A DNA stretch of 36,597 nucleotides from a virus. Positions 6,001-27,064 of this stretch are shown piece by piece (position 1 is the first letter of the stretch; each line of letters starts with the position of its first letter). The position numbers and the translations under genes are program-made. The notes under the pieces are model-generated. The model did not search any database and had not been told where the DNA came from. It saw nothing but the letters and a program-made list of their open reading frames with translations. The DNA is taken from IMG/VR virus record IMGVR_UViG_3300032053_000238, positions 1 to 36,597 of that record; one strand, given 5' to 3'.

Positions 6001-7446
6001 TAATCCGATACTAGATGAACTTTCCCATCTAACAATATACCCATAAGAGCCAGAACCAATAACCGATCCCGATGCTGCAGCAAAAACTTGAGTATCAACA
6101 TATGTTTTTACCGCTTTTTCTGTAGGCACAACCTCGTCACTGTTTCCACCTAGAGTAGTATCGGTAGAAAACTCATCTACCGAAACTCCGAATTGTAACC
6201 CCAACGAACCAGTAATCTGTACGGAATGTGAAGTTGCGATATAACTTCCGCTATCTACCCACATACTAGATGCCGCATCAATTCCAGATGTTCCACTTGA
6301 ACCACCAGTACCTGCGGTTCCGCTTGTTCCGCTGCTGCCTCCAGTTCCTGCCGTACCGCTTGAACCGCCAGTACCTGCCGTACCGCTAGTTCCACTCGAA
6401 CCACCGGTTCCCGCAGTTCCGCTTGTTCCGCTACTACCACCCGTTCCAGCAGTTCCGCTACTACCACCAGTTCCCGCAGTTCCACTTGTACCACTTGAAC
6501 CACCCGTTCCCGCAGTTCCGCTACTTCCCCCAGTTCCAGCAGTTCCACTAGTACCGCTACTACCTCCAGTTCCAGCAGTACCGCTGCTACCTCCGGTTCC
6601 TGCAGTTCCACTCGTTCCTGAACTGCCACCCGTTCCAGCAGTTCCGCTTGAACCACCAGTTCCTGCAGTTCCGCTTGTTCCTGAACTACCACCAGTCCCT
6701 GCCGTGCCACTTGAACCACCGGTTCCGGCTGTTCCGCTTGTTCCACTCGTTCCTGAAGTTCCACTATAACTTAATGCATAAGATGCGGTTACGGCGTAAC
6801 TAGAAGTGGCATAAATCGTTCCGGTTGTATACAAACTTCCAGTAATTCGTATGTCGCCCTCGTGAGTAATAGAACCATCCGCACTACCAGTCCAAACTCC
6901 ACCTGCTCCCAAAGTTTCATCTAATGTACTACCAACGTATTGAAACACATTTACTTTATATGGTCGCGGATAAGAACCACTACCAGGATCGGCGACATGA
7001 AGAATACCGGTTTTATAATCAAATATCCAATGTATATTATCGGCTTTATAAATTTGACTTCCACTTGCATCATATAATTCAACTTCATAATCTGCGCCAT
7101 ATTTATCACCTATAAAATTGGCTTGAAACAAACTGGCCGAACCTGCGGCAGTCAAATCTCCGGCAGAAAGAGATGATGTTCCGGGAGTAAATTCGGCGCC
7201 AGATACGAAATAAAACGCGTATGTTGGAAAGGTTGGATCCGCCGTCAAAATAAATTGATTGTGAAAAACGGCCACCCCCTGTAATATTGCACTAGCCGAA
7301 TCAGCGGAAACGGTATCCGTCCAAACTTCTCTATAATTTACATTAAGAGTATCAGCACCAACTTCCTGATAGAAGTTTCGTTGATTAGTAGTAAATTTTT
7401 TATTGATAAGAATCTTAAAACTCTTATCGGTCTTATCAATAGCCAA
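1..7446 (-). CDS. Giant collagen-like tail-fibre protein (3' end beyond window)
   Basis: The frame is open from a TTG start at 7446 to position 1, giving at least 2482 residues without a stop; the C-terminus lies outside. The TTG (MAIDKTDKSFKI) sits behind AAGGAG, which overlaps the stop of the preceding fibre gene. Residues 1-225 are a unique N-terminal domain, probably the virion-attachment end. After that, seven Gly-x-y arrays made of GTS, GTA, GTG and GSS triplets alternate with beta-rich modules. Recurrent module motifs are WxDSGSYxATxHDxxITGSL, LFEVxDxLSGSLFAIK, VLVWDSGS..I..K(Q/T)TGASG and an LGGNSD..(I/V)PTE(K/R)A(V/I)KTYVD motif. About 520 non-repeat residues (nt 2510-4070) include GLQGGSSNEYYHLT, a motif common in phage fibres. 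No proline occurs in the array triplets, so a collagen fold is inferred only from Gly periodicity. It is probably a long tail fibre or whisker. Confidence 0.85.
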   Translation of the reverse strand, partial: MAIDKTDKSFKILINKKFTTNQRNFYQEVGADTLNVNYREVWTDTVSADSASAILQGVAVFHNQFILTADPTFPTYAFYFVSGAEFTPGTSSLSAGDLTAAGSASLFQANFIGDKYGADYEVELYDASGSQIYKADNIHWIFDYKTGILHVADPGSGSYPRPYKVNVFQYVGSTLDETLGAGGVWTGSADGSITHEGDIRITGSLYTTGTIYATSSYAVTASYALSYSGTSGTSGTSGTAGTGGSSGTAGTGGSSGTSGTAGTGGSSGTAGTGGSSGTSGTAGTGGSSGTAGTGGSSGTSGTAGTGGSSGTAGTGGSSGTSGTAGTGGSSGTAGTGGSSGTSGTAGTGGSSGTSGTAGTGGSSGTAGTGGSSGTSGTAGTGGSSGTSGIDAASSMWVDSGSYIATSHSVQITGSLGLQFGVSVDEFSTDTTLGGNSDEVVPTEKAVKTYVDTQVFAAASGSVIGSGSYGYIVRWESSSSIGLSNLYDDGTYVIGTNISASTFYMNLPANNEGLDIFLVWDSGSNAIKYKTSGASGTSGTSGTGGSSGTAGTGGSSGTSGTAGTGGSSGTSGTSGTAGTGGSSGTSGTAGTGGSSGTSGTSGTAGTGGSSGTAGTGGSSGTSGTAGTGGSSGTAGTGGSSGTSGTAGTGGSSGTAGTGGSSGTSGTAGTGGSSGTAGTGGSSGTSGTAGTGGSSGTAGTGGSSGTAGTGGSSGTSGTAGTGGSSGTAGTGGSSGTSGTAGTGGSSGTAGTGGSSGTSGTAGTGGSSGTSGTAGTGGSSGTSGIDGASGIWTDSGSYIATIHDVQITGSLGLLYGVAVDEFSIDITLGGNSDAAIPTERAIKTYVDNQVFSSASGSVTGTGSINYVTKWYSSSSIGISDIYDDGTHIIATKDVQITGSTQIYKSGSLVFKVVGSEGALFEVYDELSGSLFAIKNISGDSIFEVYENDTVVMGRQGEFALFVSGNQVGIGTVNPVTKLHVFGSISASSLYMDSPENDEGLDMVLVWDSGSKVIKYKTTGASGTSGTSGTGGSSGTSGTAGTGGSSGTSGTSGTSGTAGTGGSSGTAGTGGSSGTSGTAGTGGSSGTAGTGGSSGTSGTAGTGGSSGTSGTAGTGGSSGTSGTSGTSGAGTILGGTANYVSKFSNATTLVSSSIYDNGTNVAIPLNISGGLRFITTTSGTLPHTDGQIYYDSNNKTLAIDLGSQDVTLQVGFEELDRVLNNTGVTIPNGKCVYVTGVASGYRTVALANTTGSESYRAIGLATEDILDGQLGYVCTRGDVNDFDTTAWNVNDILYVGTASGELQTTAPDSPAYVVRMGRVLVKDAAVGKINLRKWEASRLDDIIDVTITSPTIDQFLGYNGNIWINKSAVVQGGSVGIYFYNIDSPVILDTGNNNSNEVVTLLKTPSTDTESVDSWNCTSNIVFGEAYLYNTALGRTSLDAGVWAFNIYTSVSSTGGGRISRIISNIYQVISGSGTLNITGSGTVGTVNAIDALPFSASYTGSPVSITGSSYIQTNFGLYPITQYTSSTLVKITVPATYVTESATPYQIWKRLFGIVTEPITALTTNYALKSIAETRGAYTINSTDKIGQILFGQSNNTTTVYFVHGGTTHASSFETPLITLHNNLAGLQGGSSNEYYHLTLAEYLAYSTSTSGTSGTSGTAGTGGSSGTSGTAGTGGSSGTSGTSGTAGTGGSSGTSGTAGTGGSSGTAGTGGSSGTAGTGGSSGTSGTAGTGGSSGTDGTSGTAGTGGSSGTSGTAGTGGSSGTAGTGGSSGTSGTAGTGGSSGTSGTAGTGGSSGTSGTAGTGGSSGTSGTAGTGGSSGTSGVDGGAGVWEDSGSYLATTHDVQITGSVEIYKSGSTVFKVVGSAGTLFQVDDGLSGSLFAVKDVGGVPVFEVYDNGVIKSANYYGTASFAVTASYSLNGGGTGTSGTSGTAGTGGSSGTAGTGGSSGTSGTAGTGGSSGTAGTGGSSGTTGTSGTGGSSGTSGTSGTGGSSGTSGTAGTGGSSGTAGTGGSSGTSGIDAASSIWANSGSYLATTHDVYITGSLYASATGSFGYLDIIGTEIIVQTGSFGIISGSAFYLSTMSINEGLIDVLVWDSGSGLIMRKQTGASGTSGTSGTSGTAGTGGSSGTAGTGGSSGTAGTGGSSGTAGTGGSSGTSGTAGTGGSSGTAGTGGSSGTSGTAGTGGSSGTAGTGGSSGTSGTAGTGGSSGTAGTGGSSGTSGTSGVGGAGSWSDSGSYLATTHDVYITGSLYVSATGSFNHLEVAGDIFSVNELQAYTSSVVGSGSFGMVSASAFYVSTMSINEGLIDVLVWESGSGQIMRKQTGASGTSGTSGTAGTGGSSGTSGTAGTGGSSGTAGTGGSSGTAGTGGSSGTSGTAGTGGSSGTSGTAGTGGSSGTAGTGGSSGTSGTAGTGGSSGTAGTGGSSGTSGTSGAAGDGKWSDSGSYMATTHDIYITGSLVVSQTGSYGYINVNAAEIIVQTGSFG
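166..483 (-). repeat. Gly-Thr-Ser array G (collagen-like, in-gene)
   Basis: About 106 codons of imperfect G-T-S, G-T-A, G-T-G and G-S-S triplets. The array follows the module ending IMRKQTGA and precedes AAGDGKWSDSGSYMATTHD. Confidence 0.9.
781..1134 (-). repeat. Gly-Thr-Ser array F, with a 126-bp tandem duplication
   Basis: About 118 codons of Gly-x-y triplets. A 122-bp stretch at 797-918 is repeated exactly at 923-1044 (period 126 bp, 42 codons, in frame), showing recent in-frame expansion. Confidence 0.9.
1402..1689 (-). repeat. Gly-Thr-Ser array E
   Basis: About 96 codons of Gly-x-y triplets, preceded in the protein by TASYSLNGGG and followed by IDAASSIWANSGSYLATTHD. It contains some variant GTT and GTS triplets. 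Confidence 0.9.
1987..2502 (-). repeat. Gly-Thr-Ser array D
   Basis: About 172 codons of Gly-x-y triplets, preceded by LAEYLAYSTSTSG and followed by VDGGAGVWEDSGSYLATTHD. It occasionally has GTD in place of GTS. Confidence 0.9.
4075..4401 (-). repeat. Gly-Thr-Ser array C
   Basis: About 109 codons of Gly-x-y triplets, preceded by VIKYKTTGAS and followed by GAGTILGGTANYVSKFSN, which opens the long non-repeat domain. Confidence 0.9.
5104..5853 (-). repeat. Gly-Thr-Ser array B (longest), with an 81-bp tandem duplication
   Basis: About 250 codons of Gly-x-y triplets, the longest array here. The 112-bp stretch 5621-5732 recurs exactly at 5702-5813 (period 81 bp, 27 codons, in frame; the copies overlap). 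Confidence 0.9.
6283..6765 (-). repeat. Gly-Thr-Ser array A
   Basis: About 161 codons of Gly-x-y triplets; the first array after the N-terminal domain. It is preceded by SSYAVTASYALSYSG, which is nearly identical to the sequence before the array of the neighbouring fibre gene. Confidence 0.9.
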
Positions 7447-7457
7447 TTATTATCTCC

Positions 7458-9770
7458 TTATACATTAAAAGTCATAGTTAGTTGCGTTATATAATCTGTT
7501 GCTGACGCACTTATGTATCTTACGGCGGCGACAAACGGATCCGTGCTAGTTACTTGTTTACCCGCAGGTAACGCCCAGGTAAGAACATTTCCAGACGCAC
7601 CGCCATCTCTAACTCCATAAATACTTCCCAAATCGTCGCCAACCGCTCGTCCCAAATCGTATGTAGCCGATCCCGATTCGCTTGGTAAATAAAAAACCAT
7701 TTGTAGAGAACCGGTGCTATTCCATTTGTCTACTATATTTGTTTTTCCAGCAAATCCGGTTTTTACAACTGTTATAGTTCCACCAACATTATTATTTGTT
7801 GGCGTAAAAACTCTATAATAATAATTATCATATCCAAAACTTGCATAGTCCGCATGTCTTCCGTCTATCAACCGTTCATTTTGTACCTGAAGCTGACTAC
7901 TACTTAAACTACTCGTTGGATCCCACGACGATGAATTAATTCCATTATATCTTCTGTATTCGTCGTCAAAATACTCTATTAACGCAGTACCTCTAGTCCC
8001 GTATGTGTTTATTGCTTTAGTTCCTATATTAAAATTTGACGTGACATTTGTTTTTAATGTAGTTTTATAAAGCGTTACAGTCCCAGTTCCAACATTATTA
8101 TACGTGGAACTCAAATTATTAGTTAGTGTTCGCGATTGAGTTACAGTTAAAATGCTACTTGTCAATGGAATCCCGGTATAACTTACGTTTGTCGTACTAA
8201 AATATGTACTGGTTATCGCAGATTCTCTAGTCGGATCGTATACTGGCGCGTATAATCCTTGAGCGCTATAATAAACATTCATAATTGTTCCGGCTCCATA
8301 ATACGAAATTCCACTTAACCACTTAGTTCCCATTGTCGTAATACTTGCCGAAGATACATTTATAAAAGTCGCGGCTGGGAAAGTTGTTGTATCTCCGGCA
8401 TACCACAATGTATACGGTGTAGTTTCTCCCGCTTCTATTGGCGAAGATACTTTATAAGTAAGAGATCCGGTTTGAGTTATCGCTCCAGAAACTTTAGCCG
8501 AAGCAGATACCCAAATACTACCATATATTCCTAAAGTCACTATACTTGCACTATAAGTAGAACCTGTTCCGCTCGTAAATGCGCGATCTCCAATAGATAC
8601 AAAAGACCCAGTTCCAATTTGTAAAGATGCTGTTACTCCACCGATCAAAACATTTGTCGGAGTATAATCTCTTTTCTTTCCGGCTCTAAATCCACCGGTA
8701 TTTAATACAAGAGTTGTACTTCCCGCCAATGCGGTAACTGTAGAACCGGATTGATAAGAACCGCTATACCATTGATAATTCAACTCCGCCGCTAATTTCG
8801 CCGAAACAACTGATGGACTGGATAGCGACAATGATACCAATAAAGGCGCTTTCGTTGGCGCAATATCCAAAAATGTTTCGGAAATATCATCTATCGCATC
8901 AGCCAAATAAGTAGTACTGACAAATGTATCAAAAAATCCATCAGAATATAATCCATCCGTCGGAGTTCCTATGTTTATAGAAACCGCCGTAATGGAACTA
9001 GAAACATATAAACTACCAGTGATTTGTGTATCGTTAATAGTTGTGATATAACTTCCGCTATCAGACCATATTCCGCTCGCAGCATCTATTCCAGAAGTTC
9101 CACTTGAACCACCGGTTCCAGCAGTTCCGCTAGTACCGCTTGAACCACCTGTACCAGCAGTTCCACTACTACCTCCAGTTCCAGCGGTTCCGCTTGTACC
9201 GCTACTTCCCCCAGTTCCAGCAGTTCCACTCGAACCGCCTGTGCCAGCAGTTCCGCTTGTTCCGCTACTTCCTCCAGTTCCAGCAGTTCCGCTTGTACCA
9301 CTAGTACCCGATGTTCCACTATAACTTAATGCGTAAGATGCTGTAACTGCATAAGATGCCGTACCATAGTAATTTGCGGCGACTATTACTCCATTATCAT
9401 AAACTTCAAATACGGCATTTCCACTAATATTCCTTATAGAAAATAAAGAACCTGATAATCCATCCGCTATTTCAAATAAAGTTCCGGCCGAACCGACCAC
9501 CTTGAATACAGATGAACCCGATTTGTATATTGCTAAACTTCCAGTGATTTTTACGTCACCTTCACGGCTAATATATGTAACACTACCTGTCCAATAACTT
9601 TCGCCAATACCACCCGAACCACTAACATTTATTGTTATGGCTTCGAGTGCGTCAGCAATAGACATACTTTTATTCAGATATGTATAATAGGTATAACTTC
9701 CCCCGGTAGGAATACCGGTTTGAATATCGCTACCACTAAGGTTTAATTGTTTATATTCTGTTTTGCCCAT
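7458..9770 (-). CDS. Tail-fibre or whisker protein with a short collagen-like array (770 aa)
   Basis: ATG at 9770, 15 bases after the preceding stop, with a weak GAG ribosome site. Residues 1-150 contain beta modules (EGDVKITGSL, LFEIADGLSGSLFSI, VFEVYDNGVI) almost identical to modules inside the larger fibre gene downstream. About residues 151-227 form a Gly-Thr-Ser array. The array is followed by IDAASGIWSDSGSYITT and about 520 residues of Ser/Thr/Gly/Tyr-rich beta-type sequence ending TDYITQLTMTFNV, with no recognised enzymatic motif. The gene overlaps the SD of the next fibre gene, so the two are probably translated together and may act in one fibre. The fibre call rests on the modules and context; the C-terminal domain is not recognised. 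Confidence 0.8.
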   Translation of the reverse strand: MGKTEYKQLNLSGSDIQTGIPTGGSYTYYTYLNKSMSIADALEAITINVSGSGGIGESYWTGSVTYISREGDVKITGSLAIYKSGSSVFKVVGSAGTLFEIADGLSGSLFSIRNISGNAVFEVYDNGVIVAANYYGTASYAVTASYALSYSGTSGTSGTSGTAGTGGSSGTSGTAGTGGSSGTAGTGGSSGTSGTAGTGGSSGTAGTGGSSGTSGTAGTGGSSGTSGIDAASGIWSDSGSYITTINDTQITGSLYVSSSITAVSINIGTPTDGLYSDGFFDTFVSTTYLADAIDDISETFLDIAPTKAPLLVSLSLSSPSVVSAKLAAELNYQWYSGSYQSGSTVTALAGSTTLVLNTGGFRAGKKRDYTPTNVLIGGVTASLQIGTGSFVSIGDRAFTSGTGSTYSASIVTLGIYGSIWVSASAKVSGAITQTGSLTYKVSSPIEAGETTPYTLWYAGDTTTFPAATFINVSSASITTMGTKWLSGISYYGAGTIMNVYYSAQGLYAPVYDPTRESAITSTYFSTTNVSYTGIPLTSSILTVTQSRTLTNNLSSTYNNVGTGTVTLYKTTLKTNVTSNFNIGTKAINTYGTRGTALIEYFDDEYRRYNGINSSSWDPTSSLSSSQLQVQNERLIDGRHADYASFGYDNYYYRVFTPTNNNVGGTITVVKTGFAGKTNIVDKWNSTGSLQMVFYLPSESGSATYDLGRAVGDDLGSIYGVRDGGASGNVLTWALPAGKQVTSTDPFVAAVRYISASATDYITQLTMTFNV
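9090..9320 (-). repeat. Gly-Thr-Ser array H (in the 770-aa fibre gene)
   Basis: About 77 codons of Gly-x-y triplets of the same types as arrays A-G. It is the only such array outside the giant fibre gene in this window. Confidence 0.9.
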
Positions 9771-13132: not shown

Positions 13133-14833
13133 TTAATATTTTTTTTCGTACTTAAAATTGCCGCTATCCCAAATCCTATCATAATCGTTCAGTTGCATAT
13201 TTTGCCATTCGGTCAATGATGAATCATATTTCTCAACCTTTTCGCGTAAAACATTTTTACGAAATCCGAATCTATGAAATCGTTGACCATCTTTAATGTA
13301 CCAATAATTAGGAGTTCCATCGGATACTCTATTAAAACCGAGTTTATCATATAAATTGTTCTGATTATATGTCCATCTTCTATCCGCGTAACTGATTATT
13401 TTATTCGGATTATATTTTTTAATAAAATATGTTAATAATTTATTCGCCAACCCCGACGAAGAAACCGATGATGCAAAACGAATCAATTCATATTCATCAT
13501 TTTTAGATATATTTCCAGTAGATATTCGTAATCCACCAAAAGTCATTACGGCAACTAATTCGTTTTCATAAAATGCGCCTAATTTGGTATGGCTTTTATC
13601 CTCGCCTTGAATATGATATTGGTTGAGAAAATTATTCTTCTCCATATTGGTAATTTCTTTTATCGTAGTCTCTCTGGCGAAAATTGTTCTATCACTCAAT
13701 CCTAATATATGTTTTAATCGTGATTTCACTATATTTTGTTTGTATAACCACTCGTCCTCAAATATCTGAATCAAACGAATATTTTGATTTTCGCATTCAA
13801 GAGTCTTATTTAGATGGTATTTTTTATCTTTGTTTCCACCGATTTCAGAATGCCAAAAAAGACCATTAAACTCTATAGCGACATTTTTATCAGGAATAAA
13901 AATATCCAATTCTCTTCCGCTAGATAATATAAATCGGTTGTTTTCAATAATTTTACCTGTATAAATACTTTTTAGATATTCAACTATTTCTTTTTCTGCA
14001 TCGGAATAGTATTTAGTTAATGGATAACATCGAATACACCGCGGTATTTTACCACTATACAAAGTATCTGTAAACTCATTGTTGCATTTAATACATTGGA
14101 ACTTATATTTCTTTTTTCTACTTTTACTTCCATCATATTCATCTTTTGTAAATAATGGTTTTACTAATCCCTTTAATCTTTCTGAATTAAATAATCTATC
14201 ATACATTAAAGAAAAAATGGTTTTTCTTTTTTCTTCTTTCACACTTTCCAATTGAGATATATTCGTAACATTGTTTCTTTTGAGAAAGTTTTTATATTTT
14301 TCGGACTTAAATCCTATTATCCCTTTAGACGATAATTCTTTTGTTCTTTTAATGGTAGCAGGATGGCAAGCCGAGCCATATTTTTCAATCATTGTTTCTC
14401 TGAATTTATTTCTATTATTATATGTTTCGTCGCCGTACTTTTCCAATTTTGTTTGTTTATTTTTTTCCGAATTATTATAGGTTTCATTTCCATATTTTTT
14501 TAATAATGTTTTTTTCGTATTCGCGATCATATTATTATATGCGCCTATTTTTCTTTTTTCTCTTATTTTTTCCTTTACGCTTTTTAACTGGGATTGATGA
14601 ATGACGCCATATCGTTTCATCAAAGTCTTTTTAGCTTTTTCTGCTCTCAACTTTCCAACATCATTCGCGGCACACTGATTAGAACAATATATTTTTTTAT
14701 TATTTTTTCCAACCACTATCTCTTTTTCACAGTGTTTGCATTTTATTGTTTTGATAACAGAAGAATGATAACATTCTCGGCTACAAAACTTTTTAGTTTT
14801 TTCTATTTTCTTTCCGCAATTTTCACAATTCAT
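13133..14833 (-). CDS. Free-standing homing endonuclease, EDxHD/Vsr-like with zinc fingers and Mom-like C-terminus (566 aa)
   Basis: ATG at 14833 behind AAAGGA. Two N-terminal zinc-binding knuckles are visible: C3-x2-C6...C17-x3-C21 and C32-x2-C35...C50-x3-C54. Residues about 70-170 hold repeats of the type KKTLxKKYGxxxYNN, which look like DNA-reading NUMOD-type units. A further CxxC...CxxC follows at about 245-270. The nuclease core contains RELDIFIPDKNVAIEFNG, LFWHSEIGG and RLIQIFEDEW, the pattern of the Vsr-related EDxHD homing endonucleases (I-Bth0305I type). The last about 160 residues (LGAFYENELVAVMTFGG, SYADRRWTYNQ, PNYWYIKDGQRFHRFGF) resemble the Mom/GNAT-like domain often attached to these enzymes. 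It would cut DNA lacking the insertion and spread by repair. It sits between late structural genes and is flanked by terminators on both sides. Confidence 0.85.
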   Translation of the reverse strand: MNCENCGKKIEKTKKFCSRECYHSSVIKTIKCKHCEKEIVVGKNNKKIYCSNQCAANDVGKLRAEKAKKTLMKRYGVIHQSQLKSVKEKIREKRKIGAYNNMIANTKKTLLKKYGNETYNNSEKNKQTKLEKYGDETYNNRNKFRETMIEKYGSACHPATIKRTKELSSKGIIGFKSEKYKNFLKRNNVTNISQLESVKEEKRKTIFSLMYDRLFNSERLKGLVKPLFTKDEYDGSKSRKKKYKFQCIKCNNEFTDTLYSGKIPRCIRCYPLTKYYSDAEKEIVEYLKSIYTGKIIENNRFILSSGRELDIFIPDKNVAIEFNGLFWHSEIGGNKDKKYHLNKTLECENQNIRLIQIFEDEWLYKQNIVKSRLKHILGLSDRTIFARETTIKEITNMEKNNFLNQYHIQGEDKSHTKLGAFYENELVAVMTFGGLRISTGNISKNDEYELIRFASSVSSSGLANKLLTYFIKKYNPNKIISYADRRWTYNQNNLYDKLGFNRVSDGTPNYWYIKDGQRFHRFGFRKNVLREKVEKYDSSLTEWQNMQLNDYDRIWDSGNFKYEKKY

Positions 14834-14947: not shown

Positions 14948-17263
14948 TTATTCAGGAAATGTGGCACCAGTCGGTAAAATGTTAAAATCAATCAGAATAA
15001 ACTCTGCGGTCTTGGTAGGTTGTAAGTATATCTGACCATATAATTGATTTTTATCAATTATGTCGGGAGTATTATTCGTTTCGTCCATAATTACCTTGAA
15101 GGCATACAGCCCAGCTCGATTCTGCACACTTTCCAGATACGGATTAACAATGTTGATGAAACGATTTCTCGTTGCCGTCACATTTTGTTCAAAGACTAAG
15201 TAGCGAGTTGAAGACGCAATATATTTCTTCACCGCAATTAACAGCCTTCTTACGTTAATCCTATCAAGAGCCGATGCTTTTGCTTGAAGTGTTTTTTGAC
15301 CCCACGCAACAACACCCTGTCCTGGGAAATATGCAATAGGATTGATTCTATTGTTATACAACGAATCGCGATCCGTCTGATTTAATTTTGTATAGACATC
15401 AGTTGCGGAAGAAATTCCACCACGATTCAGACCCGCAGGAGCGAACCATTCTTGAGCGACTTTATCGTTGAATGAAAAAACACCGCACATGACAGCTGAA
15501 GGTGGTAGCCAGAACGGTTTGCTTGTACTTGGATCGAGTATTTTAACCCACGGATAATAGACACCAACATAATTAGTATCTAGTGTATTCGCCGTAGTTA
15601 TTGCAGACGCGATAGTAGTGTCTATTCCGCACAAATCCATAATATAGAAGCAATCACCACGTTCTTCGCAGATATTTATTGCGTACTTCGTGACATAAGA
15701 ATGATATTGATGAATAATACCTGGCAGGACTATTAAATTAATATCAACTTCGTCCGGATTGGCAACTATATCCAATGCTCTTTTATATCCCGTACTTCCA
15801 GTCGCAACGGAGTTCGAACAATCATACCCCTGTGTATTGGTTGCAGAAATCGATGTACCCTGAGCATTCGCCGTTCTCGGATCCATACCATCGGCTCCTC
15901 CCTGGAATCCAAACATAAATTTTCTTGTTGGAAATAATGCTCTAATTGCGGCACTCGAAGTGAAATCGATATATGTGTCTAGATGGAAAGCTTGATTGCT
16001 ACCAGTAGAAGACGGCGAACCGGTTTGTAATCCTAAATTAGTAAAATATTGTCTTGAATCTTCAGAATCGAAATTAACTCCACGATATGCTCTAGTACTT
16101 GTTTCGCCACTAATCAATTGAGAACGTGCGTAACTCATCGTTGGATAAGTTGATGCGGTAATAAGAGCCGTTATTATAGGAACGGTGTATCCGACAAATC
16201 CCATCGGAACGGCACTTTTTGGAAATGCGTCACCGGCCATCTCTACTCGAACATAAGATGATTTGTTATTCCAATCACCGGTATAAACCAATCTAGTTTC
16301 TCCGGCAACAGTCTTATATTCAGAATGTTTGTCGCCCATAAGTCTTGGCAAATAATTTATACTGGTCGGGTCTAATGTAGCATTAGCAAAAGATTCCAAT
16401 ACTTCGGGTCTAGAGTCGGTGTCAGAATACCTTCTTACCACGACACTAAACTTTCCATAATCAGAACTAGGAACTTCGTCGTCGGCAGTAATATCAAATA
16501 TACCAACTTTTACGTCCGTGTTGGCATTTTTTCCATGCGCCAATGTATGGAATCTAAATAAATTATAATAAACCGTAGTGGTAGAATTAGGCCCCATATT
16601 CTGTGATATTACCCACGGCGTTTTAGCACTCGCGTATCCTTCACCATCTCCTGCAAATGTTGCAACAACGGAATTTGACCATTGCGCAACAATTGGTAAA
16701 AGCCCATCAGTAGAAGCTGATGCTATACTTCTACTCTGTTGAGTTGAAAAATTTAAAATAACTTCTACCGGAACGGTTGATTGACCAGAAAATACTTTGG
16801 TAATATAATTTTGACGAGCTGAATTGAATGACGCAGTATACGCAACACTATTAACCAAAAAATGCGCCTCGTCAACACTACTTGACAGCATCGTAAATGT
16901 ACTCAATGTTGAATCACTTCCACTCGCTCCAAGAACCGCTAAAATTGTGCTTGGATACGCACCCACCGTATTGGTTTCTACGGCGACAAATCTCCTATTC
17001 CAGCTTGACATCCCCAAAACTCTAATAACAGTTACCGTTCCTGCGCTCTTCAAATATTCCTGAACGGCATAATTTGTATAATAATTTGAAGTTCCAAATT
17101 TAGTCATAAACTCATTTTGAGACCCAATCGTAATAGGAACGAACGCAGGCCCTTTTTCTGTCGGCCCCACTATTGTCGCTCCTATTGCAGAAATACCCTG
17201 CGCAAGGTATGTCAGGTCCTTTTCGTAAGTAAATACGCCAGGCGATACAATTTTCTCAGACAT
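14948..17263 (-). CDS. Contractile tail sheath protein, gp18-like (771 aa)
   Basis: ATG at 17263 behind TTAGGAGAAATTTT. The N-terminus (SPGVFTYEKDLTYLAQGISA, then GATIVGPTEKGPAFVP) is the classic sheath start. The C-terminal domain (WGQKTLQAKASALDRINVRR, then LLIAVKKYIASSTRYLVFEQ, ending LQPTKTAEFILIDFNILPTG) is the conserved polymerising core that wraps the tail tube and contracts at infection. It is longer than T4 gp18 (659 aa); the extra length probably lies in the variable outer domains between about residues 100 and 420. It has its own candidate promoter element upstream and a terminator downstream, which fits high-level independent expression. No tail-tube gene follows directly; the homing endonuclease occupies that place. 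Confidence 0.97.
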   Translation of the reverse strand: MSEKIVSPGVFTYEKDLTYLAQGISAIGATIVGPTEKGPAFVPITIGSQNEFMTKFGTSNYYTNYAVQEYLKSAGTVTVIRVLGMSSWNRRFVAVETNTVGAYPSTILAVLGASGSDSTLSTFTMLSSSVDEAHFLVNSVAYTASFNSARQNYITKVFSGQSTVPVEVILNFSTQQSRSIASASTDGLLPIVAQWSNSVVATFAGDGEGYASAKTPWVISQNMGPNSTTTVYYNLFRFHTLAHGKNANTDVKVGIFDITADDEVPSSDYGKFSVVVRRYSDTDSRPEVLESFANATLDPTSINYLPRLMGDKHSEYKTVAGETRLVYTGDWNNKSSYVRVEMAGDAFPKSAVPMGFVGYTVPIITALITASTYPTMSYARSQLISGETSTRAYRGVNFDSEDSRQYFTNLGLQTGSPSSTGSNQAFHLDTYIDFTSSAAIRALFPTRKFMFGFQGGADGMDPRTANAQGTSISATNTQGYDCSNSVATGSTGYKRALDIVANPDEVDINLIVLPGIIHQYHSYVTKYAINICEERGDCFYIMDLCGIDTTIASAITTANTLDTNYVGVYYPWVKILDPSTSKPFWLPPSAVMCGVFSFNDKVAQEWFAPAGLNRGGISSATDVYTKLNQTDRDSLYNNRINPIAYFPGQGVVAWGQKTLQAKASALDRINVRRLLIAVKKYIASSTRYLVFEQNVTATRNRFINIVNPYLESVQNRAGLYAFKVIMDETNNTPDIIDKNQLYGQIYLQPTKTAEFILIDFNILPTGATFPE

Positions 17264-18698: not shown

Positions 18699-19388
18699 TC
18701 AATCGAAGGCACCTTCCGGCCCCATACGAGCTATGTCCCAACTAGCAACTTCCAGTGCTCTCATTACCTTTCGGTATACTACCAGTAAGTCTAAAAGTTC
18801 CTTTGCCTCCTTAAAAGTTTTGGCGAAATAAAAATTAAACCTATCATATAAATAAGTATCATTATTTATTTCTATTATATAATATATTTTATCCGTACTA
18901 CTAAATAAAAGTTTCCCCGGAACATTTTTTATATTCTTCGTATCAGTTTTGCATTTACGACTATCCATAAAATTACTAATAAGTTTTACTGCTTTTTCAG
19001 CATCTTCTTTTGTTTTTATTATTTTAACGTTCACTTTTGGAAGAGGCTTTATATTATTCGGAGGCATTATCTTAAAATATTCTTCATAGTTTTTTCCGTA
19101 ATCTCTGGCGTTAATATACTGTTTTCCTTTGGTATAAACGTCGCCAAAAACTTTCTTGAACTCGGCGACGATCTTATCAAAGTTTTTTATACCATCCCAT
19201 CGATCTATTACGACTATTCCGTGCCCTATGTTTATTTTTGTTTCGTCTTCCAACTCAACATCTAATCTATCATTTTTAATTTTCTTTTTAGGTAATGAAA
19301 TACCAATTATGCGCCCGATAAGAGAATAAATGTTTTTAATATCTTGGTCGGAGAATTGTTCAGTAATCAATCTTTTTAGTTTAATCAT
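18699..19388 (-). CDS. Unknown protein with predicted capsid-targeting leader (229 aa)
   Basis: ATG at 19388 behind AAGGTGATAGA. The leader MIKLKRLITE|Q is the same tag found on eight or more proteins further upstream; a cut after E10 would match an (L/I)-x-E prohead-protease site. The body is Lys-rich. VELEDETKINIGHGIVVIDR, KNFDKIVAEFKKVFGDVY and a C-terminal ALEVASWDIARMGPEGAFD are visible, with no motif I recognise. The gene lies just after the terminator of the 581-aa gene, so it is the tagged gene separated from the main cluster. No promoter is evident in the short gap; readthrough or reinitiation may express it. Confidence 0.8.
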   Translation of the reverse strand: MIKLKRLITEQFSDQDIKNIYSLIGRIIGISLPKKKIKNDRLDVELEDETKINIGHGIVVIDRWDGIKNFDKIVAEFKKVFGDVYTKGKQYINARDYGKNYEEYFKIMPPNNIKPLPKVNVKIIKTKEDAEKAVKLISNFMDSRKCKTDTKNIKNVPGKLLFSSTDKIYYIIEINNDTYLYDRFNFYFAKTFKEAKELLDLLVVYRKVMRALEVASWDIARMGPEGAFD

Positions 19389-21306: not shown

Positions 21307-21729
21307 TCAATACAAAACACTCTTAACAAAAATCAGTTTTGGATTTTTATGTTTAATTTTCGCCACATAATCGTCTATATACGGCATCAACTTATCGATA
21401 TACTCGTCGCCAACCGAATCACTCAAATAAAACCTATTAGTATCTCCGTATCTCATCCACGGTATGTATCCTTTTTTAACGGCGAAAAACACTCCTTTAT
21501 GAGTATCAAACCCAGAAATCTTAAAGTATTTATGCGCTAATTCATAATGGTTGGGTATATTGGAGTCCACAATATAAAGGTCGCCGTTTGGAAAACTCAA
21601 TCCGCGAGTTTCTTTCGGTAAAAAAGATATTTTTGTCGGATTTTTGTATACCCCGACATCCGCCTGTTCATATGTTGAGTATAAATACCCATCCAATTCT
21701 TCACTTAATATTTTTTTTAATCTGATCAC
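21307..21729 (-). CDS. Leader-tagged paralogous protein, member 1 (140 aa)
   Basis: GTG start at 21729 overlapping the TGA of the CCA-enzyme gene (GTGA), so translation is coupled. The leader MIRLKKILSE|E matches the shared tag. The body is a paralogue of the 143-aa protein at 23161-23592 and the frameshifted gene at 25285-25735. Shared elements are SFPNGDLYIVDSN, a KKGYIPWxRxG box, FYLSDS and a C-terminal KHKNPKLIFVKSVLY. Predicted alpha/beta fold, no catalytic residues I can name. It is the last gene of the main tagged operon before the independent 581-aa unit. Function unknown; packaging in the head is inferred from the tag only. Confidence 0.85.
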   Translation of the reverse strand: MIRLKKILSEELDGYLYSTYEQADVGVYKNPTKISFLPKETRGLSFPNGDLYIVDSNIPNHYELAHKYFKISGFDTHKGVFFAVKKGYIPWMRYGDTNRFYLSDSVGDEYIDKLMPYIDDYVAKIKHKNPKLIFVKSVLY

Positions 21730-23168
21730 TTCATCACTCCATCATATGCACGTTTCACAATCGCGAGCGCTTCTTTTTTCGTTATGTTCGGATTCTCAAA
21801 CCACGCCGTTTCTACCTGTTTTAATAATTGACCGATTATCGGTCCTGGTTTATTTATTTTCAAGTATTTCATCACATCGTTTCCGTCTATCGGCAATTTC
21901 GGTTTCGTCGGTTCTTTTTCCAGTGATTTTAACCGATCTTTTATCTTTGAAACCTGGAGAGGCATATTATATTCTTCTGCGTGCGCAATATTGTCGGCAG
22001 CAATAAGATCAAGTGTTGTGCGTAAATGGTCGCCCAATTCCGCTTTTAACTTTCGTATTGCCTTATCAGTAACCAGTTCGGCTTCTTTTCCAAATCCTTT
22101 TGTGCGCATATGGTTTCGTACAGTTGTTACTACCGCTTTTATTATGTCGTTTGGATAGCGTAATCTTTGTAAAATCTTTTCGGTCATATCAGCAGAAATT
22201 TCTTCGTGCTCCCAGAAAGTTATTTCGCCGTTAATAACTTTTTTTGCCGTTGCCTTGCCTATATCGTGAAACAGAGCCGACAGACGAGTTATCAGTTCAG
22301 GCGGAGTATTTTTCAGCACTTCCAGAGTGTGGCGCATCGCATCCACTTTGTGAAATTTATTTTGTTCCAAACCGCGCAAGCCGTCCAACTCCGCGGCGAC
22401 ATACTTATTCAGTCCAGTTATTTGCAGAAGGCGAATTGCTTTATCGGGATATTGAGTAACTAACATTTTACTGATCTCATCCCGTATTCTTTCTTCTGAA
22501 ATAGTTTTCAGCATATGCGCATTCCTTTTTAATGCTTTTATCATAAACATCGGTAGTTGCCAGTTATATTTTACAGTAAAACGTATCGCTCGAAGCATTC
22601 GTAGCGGATCATCGCGAAAAATAATGTCTGGATCGAGCGGTGTGCGAACGATTCCCTTCTTTATATCACTTTTGCCCATTCCCGTAAGGTCAAGTATTTC
22701 GCCAGTAGTTAAATCTTTTAATAAGCTATTTACAGTAAAATCCCGACGTTCCACATCGTCTTTGAGTGTGCCTGGGGCGACATCCGGCTTTCGGCTACCA
22801 AAGTGATATTGTTCTTTGCGCGTCATAACTACTTCCACAGAAATATCTGATAAATCGTAACCGCGATGTTTTATTCCGTTTAGTTTTAATGCGGCAGTTC
22901 CGAATGTCGGAAATATTACTGGATTGCTATCTTTTTTGTAGATTCCGAGTTCTTTTGTTAGCCACTCAGCAAACTGTATTCCACCTTGCGGAAGCTCCAC
23001 GACCAAATCCAGATCTTTTATATCCAGACCGAGTAATTCATCGCGAACCGCGCCACCTGCTAAAAAAACTTTTCCGCGAAACTTTGATTTCTTAATCAGC
23101 CCGGAAATCAAATCTAATGCGGCGCTTTCCTTAGCGCCTTCTAATAATAGTTGTTTTAGTTTAATCAT
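21726..23168 (-). CDS. CCA-adding enzyme / poly(A) polymerase family protein with HD domain and capsid-targeting leader (480 aa)
   Basis: ATG at 23168, sharing ATGATTAA with the stop of the previous gene. The leader is MIKLKQLLLE|G. A complete class II nucleotidyltransferase follows: FLAGGAVRDELLG (GGAVRD 38-43), metal-binding D52-L-D54, RRDFTVNS (141-148) and RDDPLRMLRAIRF (185-197). An HD-type domain then has H280, H301-D302 (FHDIGK) and H321. The C-terminus (GPIIGQLLKQVETAWFENPN) is the usual body and tail element. The family adds CCA to tRNA 3' ends or A tails to RNA; the two cannot be told apart here, though the HD domain resembles the E. coli-type CCA enzyme. The leader is absent from ordinary members of the family and suggests packaging in the head. 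Confidence 0.92.
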   Translation of the reverse strand: MIKLKQLLLEGAKESAALDLISGLIKKSKFRGKVFLAGGAVRDELLGLDIKDLDLVVELPQGGIQFAEWLTKELGIYKKDSNPVIFPTFGTAALKLNGIKHRGYDLSDISVEVVMTRKEQYHFGSRKPDVAPGTLKDDVERRDFTVNSLLKDLTTGEILDLTGMGKSDIKKGIVRTPLDPDIIFRDDPLRMLRAIRFTVKYNWQLPMFMIKALKRNAHMLKTISEERIRDEISKMLVTQYPDKAIRLLQITGLNKYVAAELDGLRGLEQNKFHKVDAMRHTLEVLKNTPPELITRLSALFHDIGKATAKKVINGEITFWEHEEISADMTEKILQRLRYPNDIIKAVVTTVRNHMRTKGFGKEAELVTDKAIRKLKAELGDHLRTTLDLIAADNIAHAEEYNMPLQVSKIKDRLKSLEKEPTKPKLPIDGNDVMKYLKINKPGPIIGQLLKQVETAWFENPNITKKEALAIVKRAYDGVMK

Positions 23169-23592
23169 ATATGCTCTTCACTATAAAATTATATTGCGGA
23201 TTTTTTGCGTTTGTTTTTTTCGCGTATTTTTTTATTGCGGAAATTACTTCATGCGCATCAAACGGATACATCCCCAACACATACGATTCGCCTAAATAAA
23301 AATCTTTGGAATTTCCTTTTCTCGCCCATGAAATGTATCCGCGTTCGGTAATCTTGGCTAATCCATCGGTGCCGTAACTTTCCGGTATTTTATATCCTTT
23401 TTTTTGTAAAAATGCGGCAATATCGTTATGCATTACATCATTACTATCAATCACAAATAAGTTACCGTCCGGATCGCTTATTGCTCGTAAATTATCTTCC
23501 ATACGAGATATTGATATCGGATTTTTAAACACTTCATATCCTCTAATTCTACCGATAAGATCTTCTTTTAATAAATTTTTAAGTTTTATCAT
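23161..23592 (-). CDS. Leader-tagged paralogous protein, member 2 (143 aa)
   Basis: ATG at 23592, one base after the previous stop; its own stop lies within ATGATTAA, the start of the CCA-enzyme gene. The leader is MIKLKNLLKE|D. The body follows the family pattern: NPISISRMEDNLRAISDPDG, NLFVIDSND, KITERGYISWARKGNSKDFY, LGES and a C-terminal KKYAKKTNAKNPQYNFIVKS. Closest relative in the window is the frameshifted gene at 25285-25735, then the 140-aa protein. Function not recognised. The presence of three copies in one operon argues for duplication and divergence of a cargo protein. Confidence 0.87.
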   Translation of the reverse strand: MIKLKNLLKEDLIGRIRGYEVFKNPISISRMEDNLRAISDPDGNLFVIDSNDVMHNDIAAFLQKKGYKIPESYGTDGLAKITERGYISWARKGNSKDFYLGESYVLGMYPFDAHEVISAIKKYAKKTNAKNPQYNFIVKSIYD

Positions 23593-23593
23593 T

Positions 23594-24010
23594 TTACTTT
23601 ATTTTAATATATACCGCTTCGCCCATCCTATTAACATTTAATGTCGCAAACCCATTTTTTACTAACCATATTAACTGATGTGATATATCCCTTCCAATAA
23701 AATATACCAAAATCCATACCGGAATATATTTGAACGGAGACTCAGAACCCAAAACATACTTATAAATATTTTTAATATCCCTTAATTCTTCTTGTGTCGG
23801 TTCTGTACCGGACGTTATCCTTGTATTTCTCGGTATATTAGGTAATCTCTCATCTTCGCCTCGTAATGGAAACTGATATGCTTTTTTATTTCCATAATTA
23901 ATCAAACGAGAATTCTCCTTTTGGAATTTGGTTTTGGGTTTATGTCTTTTACTATATTCTTCGCAATCAGAATAAAAATCTTCTCTTATTAATCTTTTAA
24001 GTTTAATCAT
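23594..24010 (-). CDS. Leader-tagged protein of unknown function (138 aa)
   Basis: ATG at 24010 inside ATGATTAA, which also ends the kinase gene (8-base overlap). The leader is MIKLKRLIRE|D. The middle is basic and polar (KRHKPKTKFQKENSRL). The C-terminal part, PVWILVYFIGRDISHQLIWL then VKNGFATLNVNRMGEAVYIK, looks like helices followed by a two-stranded wing, so a small winged-helix fold is possible but unproven. No catalytic motif. The tag and the coupled position place it with the other predicted packaged proteins. Confidence 0.8.
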   Translation of the reverse strand: MIKLKRLIREDFYSDCEEYSKRHKPKTKFQKENSRLINYGNKKAYQFPLRGEDERLPNIPRNTRITSGTEPTQEELRDIKNIYKYVLGSESPFKYIPVWILVYFIGRDISHQLIWLVKNGFATLNVNRMGEAVYIKIK

Positions 24011-24836
24011 GTTTTAATTTTCTCTTTAAAAAGAATTTATAATCATTTATCAATTTCCAAGTTCCTTTAATCGGCGAAGAACCCGTGGATTCCCACTTAA
24101 AGTGCATCAACCTATCAACTACCCCGTCAGATTTTTGCCCTTCACTTTTATAATCATTATACGCCTTATCCATCTGAGTTGCATAATTTAAAATCACATT
24201 TTCGCCTACCCCGCGACCTTGAGTATTTTTTCTCCACACATCGCGCTCAATTGCCAGATTGACATCTATATCCAAATATATGACGGTATTGTTAAATTTA
24301 TTTTGCTTAGTTCTAACTAATTTTTGTATAATACTATTGGAATGTGTCGCAGTCGTATCAATAACTAAAAGATTACCCGCTTCCACAATTTTTGTATCAA
24401 ACATTTTTGTTGTTAAAGATTGCGCCGCATCTCGTATATCAAAATAAGTTGAATAAAACCCTTTATAAAAAGTTTTATAAAAATATCTCAATCCTTTATT
24501 TTTATTGTTTTCCCACCACTCATACGTTATAGGCATCCTAACTTCGGTATCATTATTATTTATGTATTTGGAATCGTTTATAAATTTATTCAAATCTTCG
24601 TTGGATTTTATATTATCAGTCATCCAATTATATTGATTTTTGGCGTGTTGATATTGCGCAGCGATAACTTGAATATCAGATGCGCTTACCTTATATCCAG
24701 CAAAACTTGAAATATATCTTTGCACTTCGTTGTTGATAAAAGTAGATTTTCCGGCAGCGGGTAGCCCCATAAGAACGACGCATTGTTTCATCAAATCTTC
24801 TTTAAATTCAAAGTATATCTTTTTAAGTTTTATCAT
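24003..24836 (-). CDS. Zeta-toxin/polynucleotide-kinase-like P-loop kinase with leader (277 aa)
   Basis: ATG at 24836 in an ATGA overlap with the metallopeptidase gene. The leader MIKLKKIYFE|F is a looser form of the tag. KQCVVLMGLPAAGKSTF follows (Walker A, residues 24-32). Later GNLLVIDTTATHS is a Walker B-like strand, and VIYLDIDVNLAIERDVWRKN followed by TQGRGVGENVI forms the Arg-containing lid typical of zeta toxins and T4 Pnk-type kinases. Residues about 60-120 are an insert (SKYINNNDTEV, YEWWENNKNKGLRYF). The family phosphorylates either nucleotide sugars (zeta) or nucleic-acid ends (Pnk); the sequence alone does not decide. No phosphatase domain. Packaging in the head is inferred from the leader. 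Confidence 0.8.
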   Translation of the reverse strand: MIKLKKIYFEFKEDLMKQCVVLMGLPAAGKSTFINNEVQRYISSFAGYKVSASDIQVIAAQYQHAKNQYNWMTDNIKSNEDLNKFINDSKYINNNDTEVRMPITYEWWENNKNKGLRYFYKTFYKGFYSTYFDIRDAAQSLTTKMFDTKIVEAGNLLVIDTTATHSNSIIQKLVRTKQNKFNNTVIYLDIDVNLAIERDVWRKNTQGRGVGENVILNYATQMDKAYNDYKSEGQKSDGVVDRLMHFKWESTGSSPIKGTWKLINDYKFFLKRKLKHD

Positions 24837-25288
24837 ATTTTCATTCTTTTTTTAATTTGGTCGCCAGAAGTTTTTTCAAATTCATCGAGCGACACTTTCC
24901 AATGAATCTTAAAATATTTTTTAACTAAATCCGCGGCGCGGAAAAAATGATATTTTCTAAGCAGGAGATACCCACCATAATCCGCTTCTTTTTCTTGACG
25001 CGATTGCCAAGTAATATTGTGTTTAAGTAAATGATGCGCTATTTCATGCGCTTCAATAAATCTAATAGTATCTTCTGATGTATTATCAAGCTCTTCGCCA
25101 TCAACTATTATAATCGGCTTATCAGGAAGAGTTGCAGCAATATCCTTATCACCGATAAAACTTTTTAATTCTTCATATTTCGGATGCGCCTTGAAAACGA
25201 CAACTATATTATATCGTTTATCTATTTGCCCGTTAAATGAAACTATATCTTTAGTTTCTTCTTTTATCATATTTTTAAGTTTTATCAT
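24833..25288 (-). CDS. Zinc metallopeptidase (HEIAHH) with leader (151 aa)
   Basis: ATG at 25288, overlapping the ancestral stop of the frameshifted upstream gene. The leader is MIKLKNMIKE|E. The catalytic motif AHEIAHHLLKH gives H81, E82 and H85. Eleven residues past that motif, EKEADYGGYLLL supplies the probable third zinc ligand (E101) in the E-A-D form used by ImmA/IrrE-type and related gluzincin peptidases. It is small for a peptidase and has no signal peptide or membrane segment. ImmA-like enzymes cut repressors; if this one is delivered with the DNA it could act on a host regulator or defence protein, but the target is speculation. Confidence 0.85.
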   Translation of the reverse strand: MIKLKNMIKEETKDIVSFNGQIDKRYNIVVVFKAHPKYEELKSFIGDKDIAATLPDKPIIIVDGEELDNTSEDTIRFIEAHEIAHHLLKHNITWQSRQEKEADYGGYLLLRKYHFFRAADLVKKYFKIHWKVSLDEFEKTSGDQIKKRMKI

Positions 25289-25735
25289 CGTATCGACTCA
25301 AGAATAAAATTGTATTGCGGATTTTTTGCTTTAACCTTTTTTGCATATTTTTTATATAAGGCATAAGTTTTTTGCTAGTAAAATATGGTAAATCTTCTCT
25401 ATCAAGTTCTACGGATTCTGATAAAAAAACGAATTGGCTCTACCGTTTCTTTGCCATGGAATATACCCCCGCTTAATTTGTTCCGCTAATTCTCCTAGCG
25501 TATTTCCAACGGGAGTTGAATATCCGTGTTTATTTAACCAGTTCGCAAAATGGGTGTGAATCACATCCCAGTTATCATCTATCACGAATAAGTCGCCGTT
25601 GGGAAAACTTATTGCGCGTAAATCTTCCACCATTCTGGATATTGATTTCGGGTTCTTAAATATTTGGTTTCTGCCCGGATCCGTTCCGTAATATCCAATA
25701 AGTTCTTCTTTTAATAAATCTTTTAGTTTTATCAT
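25285..25735 (-). pseudogene. Leader-tagged paralogue, member 3, broken by two homopolymer frameshifts
   Basis: ATG at 25735 opens a 108-residue frame with leader MIKLKDLLKE|E that follows the 143-aa paralogue (FKNPKSISRMVEDLRAISFP, NGDLFVIDDN, KRGYIPWQRNGRANSFF) and stops at 25409. The missing C-terminus is present in other frames. A one-base loss in the run of seven A (25423-25429, plus strand) interrupts SFFLSESVELDRED. A second one-base loss in the run of six T (25348-25353) interrupts LMPYIKKYAKK. After both corrections the frame ends NPQYNFILESIR at a TGA overlapping the next gene's ATG, exactly as intact neighbours do. Either recent decay or sequencing error at homopolymers. Confidence 0.8.
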
Positions 25736-26656: not shown

Positions 26657-27064
26657 TTATTGCCCGATTTTCAGTTCAGTTAAAAATGCTTTCAATAATC
26701 TCAGATCTTCTTTACCTTCAAATGGCTGGGAAACCGCATTTCGTTCTTTGTCCGCAATCCATCCGTACTCAGCCGTAAAAGAAGCACACATGGAGACATA
26801 AACTACTTTATTTTTTTCGCCTTCATATGTTTCTTTGGTTAAATCTAAAACATATTTTTTATTATCATCAGATTTCCATTTCCATTGCGCAAGAAGTTTG
26901 GTTACTCCCTCTATAAATGATCTTTGAAATGACTTCGCAAAAGTCAATTCATTATTTGCGAAGGGCAAAGTTTTTCCTTTATGAATGTGATTTCTTTTTA
27001 ATATCGCGGCTTCGGATAATTTCTTTCCCTCGGTTAAAAATTGCTTCCATTTGTTGTCTTTCAT
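26657..27064 (-). CDS. Protein of unknown function with variant leader (135 aa)
   Basis: ATG at 27064 in an ATGA overlap with the 221-aa gene. The N-terminus MKDNKWKQFLTE|GKKLSEA keeps the K-x-x-F-L-x-E end of the tag and is closer to T4 internal-protein leaders (MKTYQEFIxEA) than the other tags here. The body contains KSFQRSFIEGVTKLLAQWKW, YVLDLTKETYEGEKNKVVYV and EDLRLLKAFLTELKIGQ: an alpha/beta protein without a motif I recognise. Tight coupling with its neighbours puts it in the same operon and probably the same role. Confidence 0.78.
   Translation of the reverse strand: MKDNKWKQFLTEGKKLSEAAILKRNHIHKGKTLPFANNELTFAKSFQRSFIEGVTKLLAQWKWKSDDNKKYVLDLTKETYEGEKNKVVYVSMCASFTAEYGWIADKERNAVSQPFEGKEDLRLLKAFLTELKIGQ

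Follow-up and report, generated by a model that had tools for sequence, protein, structure and literature searches.

The window analysed here, an entire viral record of 36.6 kb, encodes an intact enzyme of the CCA-adding/poly(A)-polymerase family with an extra ten-residue leader that ends at a conserved protease-type junction, matched by a protease and by capsid sites in its relatives. On these sequence features, the protein is strongly predicted to be packaged into the virion. The leader would load the enzyme into the prohead core of a T4-like phage, where an S77 (gp21-type) prohead protease would cut after Glu10 to leave a mature enzyme starting GAKESAAL. Ejected with the DNA, together with other tagged cargo, the enzyme would then be catalytically active and of benefit to the virus by restoring or maintaining the 3'-CCA ends of tRNAs from the opening minutes of infection, ahead of phage gene expression. 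Because the leader looks like a loading and cutting tag, the virus probably carries tRNA repair into the cell. Taken as a whole, the account of a packaged, ejected head protein with a cleaved leader and a part in early tRNA 3'-CCA upkeep appears to us to have a good probability of being correct. The open-access literature searched yielded no description of a CCA enzyme packaged in virions.

The gene and the sequence elements on which its assignment is based are as follows, with a slash marking a predicted or prohead-protease-type cut here and below:

21726..23168, minus strand: CCA-adding/PAP-family tRNA nucleotidyltransferase (480 aa, ATG start), recognised by profiles, fold and motifs
23139..23168, minus strand: predicted capsid-targeting leader MIKLKQLLLE (residues 1-10), with the predicted prohead-protease cut after Glu10 and before Gly11 (MIKLKQLLLE/G)
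23040..23057, minus strand: GGAVRD catalytic motif (residues 38-43)
Residue 51 of the CCA protein: KDLDL motif
22725..22748, minus strand: RRDFTVNS motif (residues 141-148)
22578..22610, minus strand: DPLRMLRAIRF motif (residues 187-197)
Residue 225 of the CCA protein: EERIRDE motif
22254..22268, minus strand: HDIGK of the HD domain (residues 301-305)

The N-terminus of the open reading frame (ORF) reads MIKLKQLLLEGAKESAAL, and the protein consists of a class II nucleotidyltransferase head, an RNA-binding region and an HD domain. A sequence-only reading of this DNA had described all catalytic motifs as intact, which was borne out at residues 38, 51, 141, 187, 225 and 301; the GG..RD, D.D, RRDFT.N and DPLR..RF motifs of the class II CCA/PAP head are all present. 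Pfam matches were obtained to PolyA_pol (7e-20), PolyA_pol_RNAbd (5e-12) and HD (5e-7), the PHROG match was to tRNA nucleotidyltransferase (5e-57), and a sequence search of the PDB also placed the protein in the CCA-adding/poly(A)-polymerase family. An AlphaFold model, with 29 related viral sequences as input, had a mean pLDDT of 91 and fell below 50 solely at residues 1-8, which belong to the leader. Its best Foldseek matches (9kma, 1miv, 6qy6 and 5hc9; E 1e-16 to 1e-14; query TM-score 0.55-0.68) were CCA-adding enzymes and tRNA nucleotidyltransferases, and the model shows the overall fold of solved CCA enzymes. The assignment is one of family, within which CCA addition and the addition of only A, only CC or poly(A) appear inseparable by sequence for this enzyme. 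A subgroup of the viral CCA enzymes (L037-L040) has kept an [LI]xE leader and lost the residues of the HD domain.

The ten residues are an extension relative to other members of the family. Nineteen bacterial homologues, restricted to unfused proteins and with the start taken as the first start codon before GGxxRD, begin 20-34 residues (median 26) ahead of that motif, compared with 37 in the window protein. Five other phage CCA enzymes begin 6-32 residues ahead of it and carry no leader, and in the Lak-phage enzyme the domain begins directly at the N-terminus. When the Bacillus stearothermophilus enzyme (1miv) was aligned with the window protein, its chain residue 10 paired with window residue 23. 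The sequence-only reading had placed the leader ahead of the normal family start and had named bacterial homologues with the same ten residues as evidence that would speak against it; the former held against the 19 bacterial and five phage homologues, and none of the latter was present among those sampled. We rejected a bacterial source for the leader, since the unfused bacterial homologues start approximately 11 residues later and the motif is absent there.

In layout, the leader corresponds to the capsid-targeting sequence (CTS) of T4. In T4, such propeptides span 10-20 residues (PMC5694885); residues 4 and 7 of the CTS direct targeting while residues 8 and 10 direct processing, and the gp21 prohead protease of T4 cleaves after (L/I)xE (PMC9026906). 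The N-terminus of both IPII and IPIII, as read in this analysis, is MKTYQEFIAE/A. The window leader likewise has hydrophobic residues at positions 4, 7 and 8 and Glu at position 10, and closes on (L/I)xE within the same span of N-terminal residues. Among 64 proteins with an [LIM]8-x-E10 leader from 27 related loci, Leu stands at position 4 in 55 and Leu, Ile or Met at position 7 in 57, positions 4 and 7 having been free and 8 and 10 the criterion by which these leaders were selected.

As with T4 IPI-III, otherwise unrelated cargo stands behind one leader with an (L/I)xE end, ten residues long as in IPII and IPIII. However, the leader sequence is different (MIKLK), the cargo set is larger, and whereas the T4 IPs are small proteins that inhibit GmrSD restriction, the cargo in the window is a large, housekeeping-type RNA enzyme. 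A 2025 paper on injected T4 proteins has Ip1-3 acting in anti-restriction, and its text makes no mention of tRNA. T4 Alt offers a second likeness, as a head-packaged enzyme with a short propeptide that is ejected, and a leader-bearing ART-PolyVal protein is present in one relative (L001); Alt, however, modifies RNA polymerase, whereas the CCA enzyme acts on tRNA. A leader that targets a site other than the prohead, such as a replication compartment or the membrane, might be expected to be basic with regularly spaced hydrophobic residues, as this one is. Yet it is only ten residues long and closes on the T4 head-protease motif, and the relatives have genes for T4-type protease and capsid proteins in which this motif recurs, which makes such a destination extremely unlikely.

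The leader is not peculiar to the CCA gene. It is present in MIKLK-type form or as a close variant on nine ORFs of the window between 18.7 and 26.7 kb; those other than the CCA gene, together with an internal copy and a neighbouring variant, are:

18699..19388, minus strand: leader ORF, MIKLKRLITE/Q, 229 aa, without a Pfam match
21307..21729, minus strand: leader ORF, MIRLKKILSE/E, 140 aa, GTG start, overlapping the end of the CCA gene
23161..23592, minus strand: leader ORF, MIKLKNLLKE/D, 143 aa, overlapping the start of the CCA gene
23594..24010, minus strand: leader ORF, MIKLKRLIRE/D, 138 aa
24003..24836, minus strand: P-loop kinase-like leader ORF, 277 aa, with weak AAA_33/zeta/PNK matches
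24833..25288, minus strand: metallopeptidase-like leader ORF, MIKLKNMIKE/E, 151 aa, M78/M48, PHROG metallo-protease
25409..25735, minus strand: leader ORF, MIKLKDLLKE/E, 108 aa
25737..26651, minus strand: ORF with a short leader, MRLKKLLLE/N, 304 aa
25914..25943, minus strand: second, internal leader-like copy, TIKLKNLINE/S, at residues 237-246 of the 304-aa ORF, a fusion-type junction
26657..27064, minus strand: ORF with the variant leader MKDNKWKQFLTE/G, 135 aa

Eight of the nine match [LI]xE, the exception being ORF 24003-24836, whose leader MIKLKKIYFE ends in IYFE, with Tyr rather than Leu or Ile two residues ahead of the Glu. Seven ATG-Ile-Lys-Leu-Lys sites were observed in the window against 0.04 expected from shuffles (maximum 1 in 200 shuffles), and the repetition of the leader is not due to chance. 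Beyond residue 14, similarity was limited to a single pair of leader proteins, in a comparison that left out ORF 23161-23592, by eye a member of the same small family; ORF 21307-21729 is a paralogue of ORF 25409-25735. Gene duplication was therefore ruled out as the source of the common leader for most pairs, their bodies being unrelated past this point. The codons within the leader differ between genes (ATA, ATT or ATC for Ile; CTT, CTA or TTA for Leu), so it is the protein sequence that is kept. This bears directly on whether the common N-terminus might be a translational or recombination hitchhiker, a copied gene start without a role in the protein. Adjoining leader genes do share a few bases at their ends, and the leader proteins compared include two evident paralogues, but a hitchhiker would not be expected to hold its amino acids while synonymous codons vary, to precede bodies that are mostly unrelated, or to keep [LI]xE at the internal joints of fusions despite differing upstream sequence. 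We consider it very unlikely.

The junction is equally regular in viral relatives of the CCA enzyme. A profile scan of viral contigs for the CCA family gave 39 loci, and 30 non-redundant viral CCA proteins had a readable N-terminal junction. [LIM]xE was present within ten positions ahead of the CCA domain in 29 of these 30, 26 of which place the Glu exactly 28 residues ahead of GG, compared with 5% of comparable spans elsewhere in the same proteins; relative L018 is the exception. The corresponding binomial value of 1e-36 ignores shared ancestry and is not to be taken literally, since the relatives share descent and their junctions are not 30 independent events. The sequences ahead of the junction vary (MIKLKQLLLE, MTEIKQRIVE, MSIGLVYLLKE, MLLKYILNE and MKRLTE), and the constancy of the site while the preceding residues differ between groups is a stronger point than the binomial value.

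Several relatives carry the enzyme within a longer chain. In LR756501, the 735-kb phage of the huge-phage study, a CCA domain 60% identical to that of the window closes a chain of 1233 residues in which a cytidine-deaminase domain is also present, and IIQEN and MLNEA stand ahead of the CCA part. In L003, a phage lysozyme domain is followed by VILE/G, the CCA enzyme and a further LKE/S, while the enzyme is fused behind a deaminase domain in L004 and behind an acetyltransferase domain in L028, L030 and L031; [LIM]xE is present at the joints of all five fusions. Judging from these joints, the fusions look like protease-released polyproteins, although in-frame Met codons lie near the joint in several, and translation of some could begin internally. 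The polyvalent proteins known from phages and conjugative elements are likewise multidomain and predicted to be injected (PMC5512222, whose main text makes no mention of CCA-adding). Similar to these are the CCA fusions of L003, L004 and L031, whose joints, however, carry prohead-protease-type sites. Several unlike domains per chain, the hallmark of polyvalent proteins, were found solely in relatives L003, L004, L028, L030 and L031, the window protein being a single enzyme.

The window contains T4-type tail genes, namely a head-tail adaptor and a tail sheath:

14948..17263, minus strand: T4-type tail sheath protein (PHROG match), indicating a contractile-tail phage

The nearest named phages by tail sheath have Microcystis elabens and Flavobacterium as hosts. 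In Flavobacterium phage immuto 2-6A, a cultured relative, similar N-terminal [LI]xE leaders occur in the head-gene region. The record is probably a fragment of a larger genome, and no prohead protease or capsid gene was recognised within its 36.6 kb. A gp21-type S77 protease (PF03420) was found above cut-off on the contigs of 11 of 19 relatives, with GELDHP and SSRG motifs in all ORFs read; the PF03420 matches of LR756501 were under the cut-off, and the ORFs read there show sequence typical of the family. Capsid proteins of the gp23 type were above cut-off in 12 of 20 records, and those read have [LIM]xE sites inside the first ~70 residues, with positions around 51-55 and 60-64 conserved among the closer relatives. 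In LR756501 (L046:11914-14337, +), the prohead protease is apparently fused to a scaffold-like region rich in YIAE repeats, with gp23 adjoining.

Across the CCA-bearing loci, an N-terminal [LIM]xE at positions 8-14 was four-fold enriched (170 observed, 42 expected). There was no enrichment in bacterial loci (7 observed, 10 expected), nor in the tRNA regions of these phages (6 observed, 6 expected), and these two controls rule out a generic effect of N-terminal composition. The earlier proposal that the leader is a capsid-targeting signal is thus strongly supported at the level of sequence by the junction, the T4 CTS layout, gp21 and gp23 in relatives, the polyprotein joints and the controls.

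A scan of 89 leader-type proteins gave matches that included acetyltransferases, 2'-5' RNA ligase/Acb1-like phosphoesterases, zeta-like kinases, ART-PolyVal, HD_4, PPK2 and phage lysozyme; Acb1 (2e-8; L022:12343-12879) and Zeta_toxin (6e-11; L014:7682-8437) were over the cut-off. At least one of the 89, a terminase (L013), is probably not cargo. The ART, 2H/Acb1-like, zeta-like and HD_4 proteins would fit the pattern of injected effectors, of which T4 Alt is an example. The MIKLKTLLEG leader at L001:572-1051 (+) precedes an ART-PolyVal ADP-ribosyltransferase (3.7e-13), which parallels T4 Alt in function. Leader-bearing 2H phosphoesterases with an Acb1 (anti-CBASS) match over the cut-off occur at L020:13066-14139, L022:12343-12879 and L031:11415-12284 (+), which suggests that these Acb1-family proteins may be packaged anti-CBASS enzymes. 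Leader-type N-termini were also seen on HD_4 proteins, possibly alarmone hydrolases, at L014:12230-12715 and L009:14421-14975 (+). Large cytidylyltransferase-like proteins with an N-terminal [LI]xE lie near leader-bearing genes at L014:8437-10824, L018:6202-8190 and L148:1244-3163, and are possibly packaged nucleotide or NAD-related enzymes.

A packaged CCA enzyme may serve to mend tRNA 3' ends that host nucleases damage at an early stage of infection. The tRNAs of some relatives lack an encoded CCA, so the enzyme may instead simply mature and maintain the phage's own tRNAs, with the leader a by-product or a means of packaging a minor fraction. Among the tRNAs sampled, this applies to 21 of 22 in G006 and 35 of 40 in LR756501, where CCA addition would consequently be needed. 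CCA enzymes of jumbo and huge phages, which belong to the same family, are also classed with translation or tRNA- and RNA-repair genes, and packaging is not mentioned in the passages on them found in these reports (PMC7162821, PMC7824862). However, CCA is encoded in 23 of 25 tRNAs of G007 and all 19 of G008, and contigs G004, G005, G009, G010 and G011 show no tRNA gene, which fits the repair purpose and makes a function other than maturation likely for some of these phages. The [LI]xE junction is nonetheless present on the CCA genes with a readable N-terminus from G004, G005 and G007-G011. Maturation of the phage's own tRNAs also leaves the late cargo-gene position and the conserved protease site unexplained, and we consider it rather unlikely as the main role. 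Rfam and tRNA scans of the 36.6-kb window gave no matches.

The packaged enzyme might specifically counter host attack on the tRNA 3' tail, by Cas12a3 or by toxins that trim or modify the CCA end, which is a narrower form of the packaging explanation and not its opposite. Cas12a3 cuts 2-5 nt off the 3' end of tRNAs, and according to its discoverers viral resistance would need yet unknown means (PMC12851939). The CCA end can also be pyrophosphorylated by small alarmone synthetase toxins, a modification that a phage hydrolase undoes (PMC11559606), and the Acb1-like and HD_4 families are among the co-tagged cargo. CCA addition alone, however, cannot mend cuts that take off the discriminator base, nor does it itself remove a 3' pyrophosphate. 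A packaged CCA enzyme would be a natural candidate against those Cas12a3 tail cuts that leave the discriminator base, and we regard this narrower purpose as possible, if somewhat short of an even chance.

Delivery of a packaged CCA enzyme, if true, would mean that a core RNA-repair enzyme reaches the cell in the particle itself, and would suggest a candidate answer to the question of how phages withstand cleavage of the tRNA 3'-CCA tail by defence systems. A readable ten-residue code would moreover list the injected proteins of uncultured giant and T4-like phages from their sequence alone. More tentatively, and at clearly less than even odds in our view, T4-like phages of up to 735 kb may pre-load an enzyme kit that includes CCA repair against host defences such as Cas12a3; such a kit, its members bearing a common tag that the protease removes or joined in polyproteins that it cuts, would amount to particle-carried counter-defence.

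Elsewhere in the window, a 566-aa Cys-rich protein (13133-14833, minus strand) that appears homing-endonuclease-like by eye lies between the tail genes. Long collagen-like GTSGTSGTAG repeats occur in tail-fibre-type genes at 1-7000 and 7458-9770 (minus strand), and odd ORFs on both strands over these repeats resemble their frame shadows.
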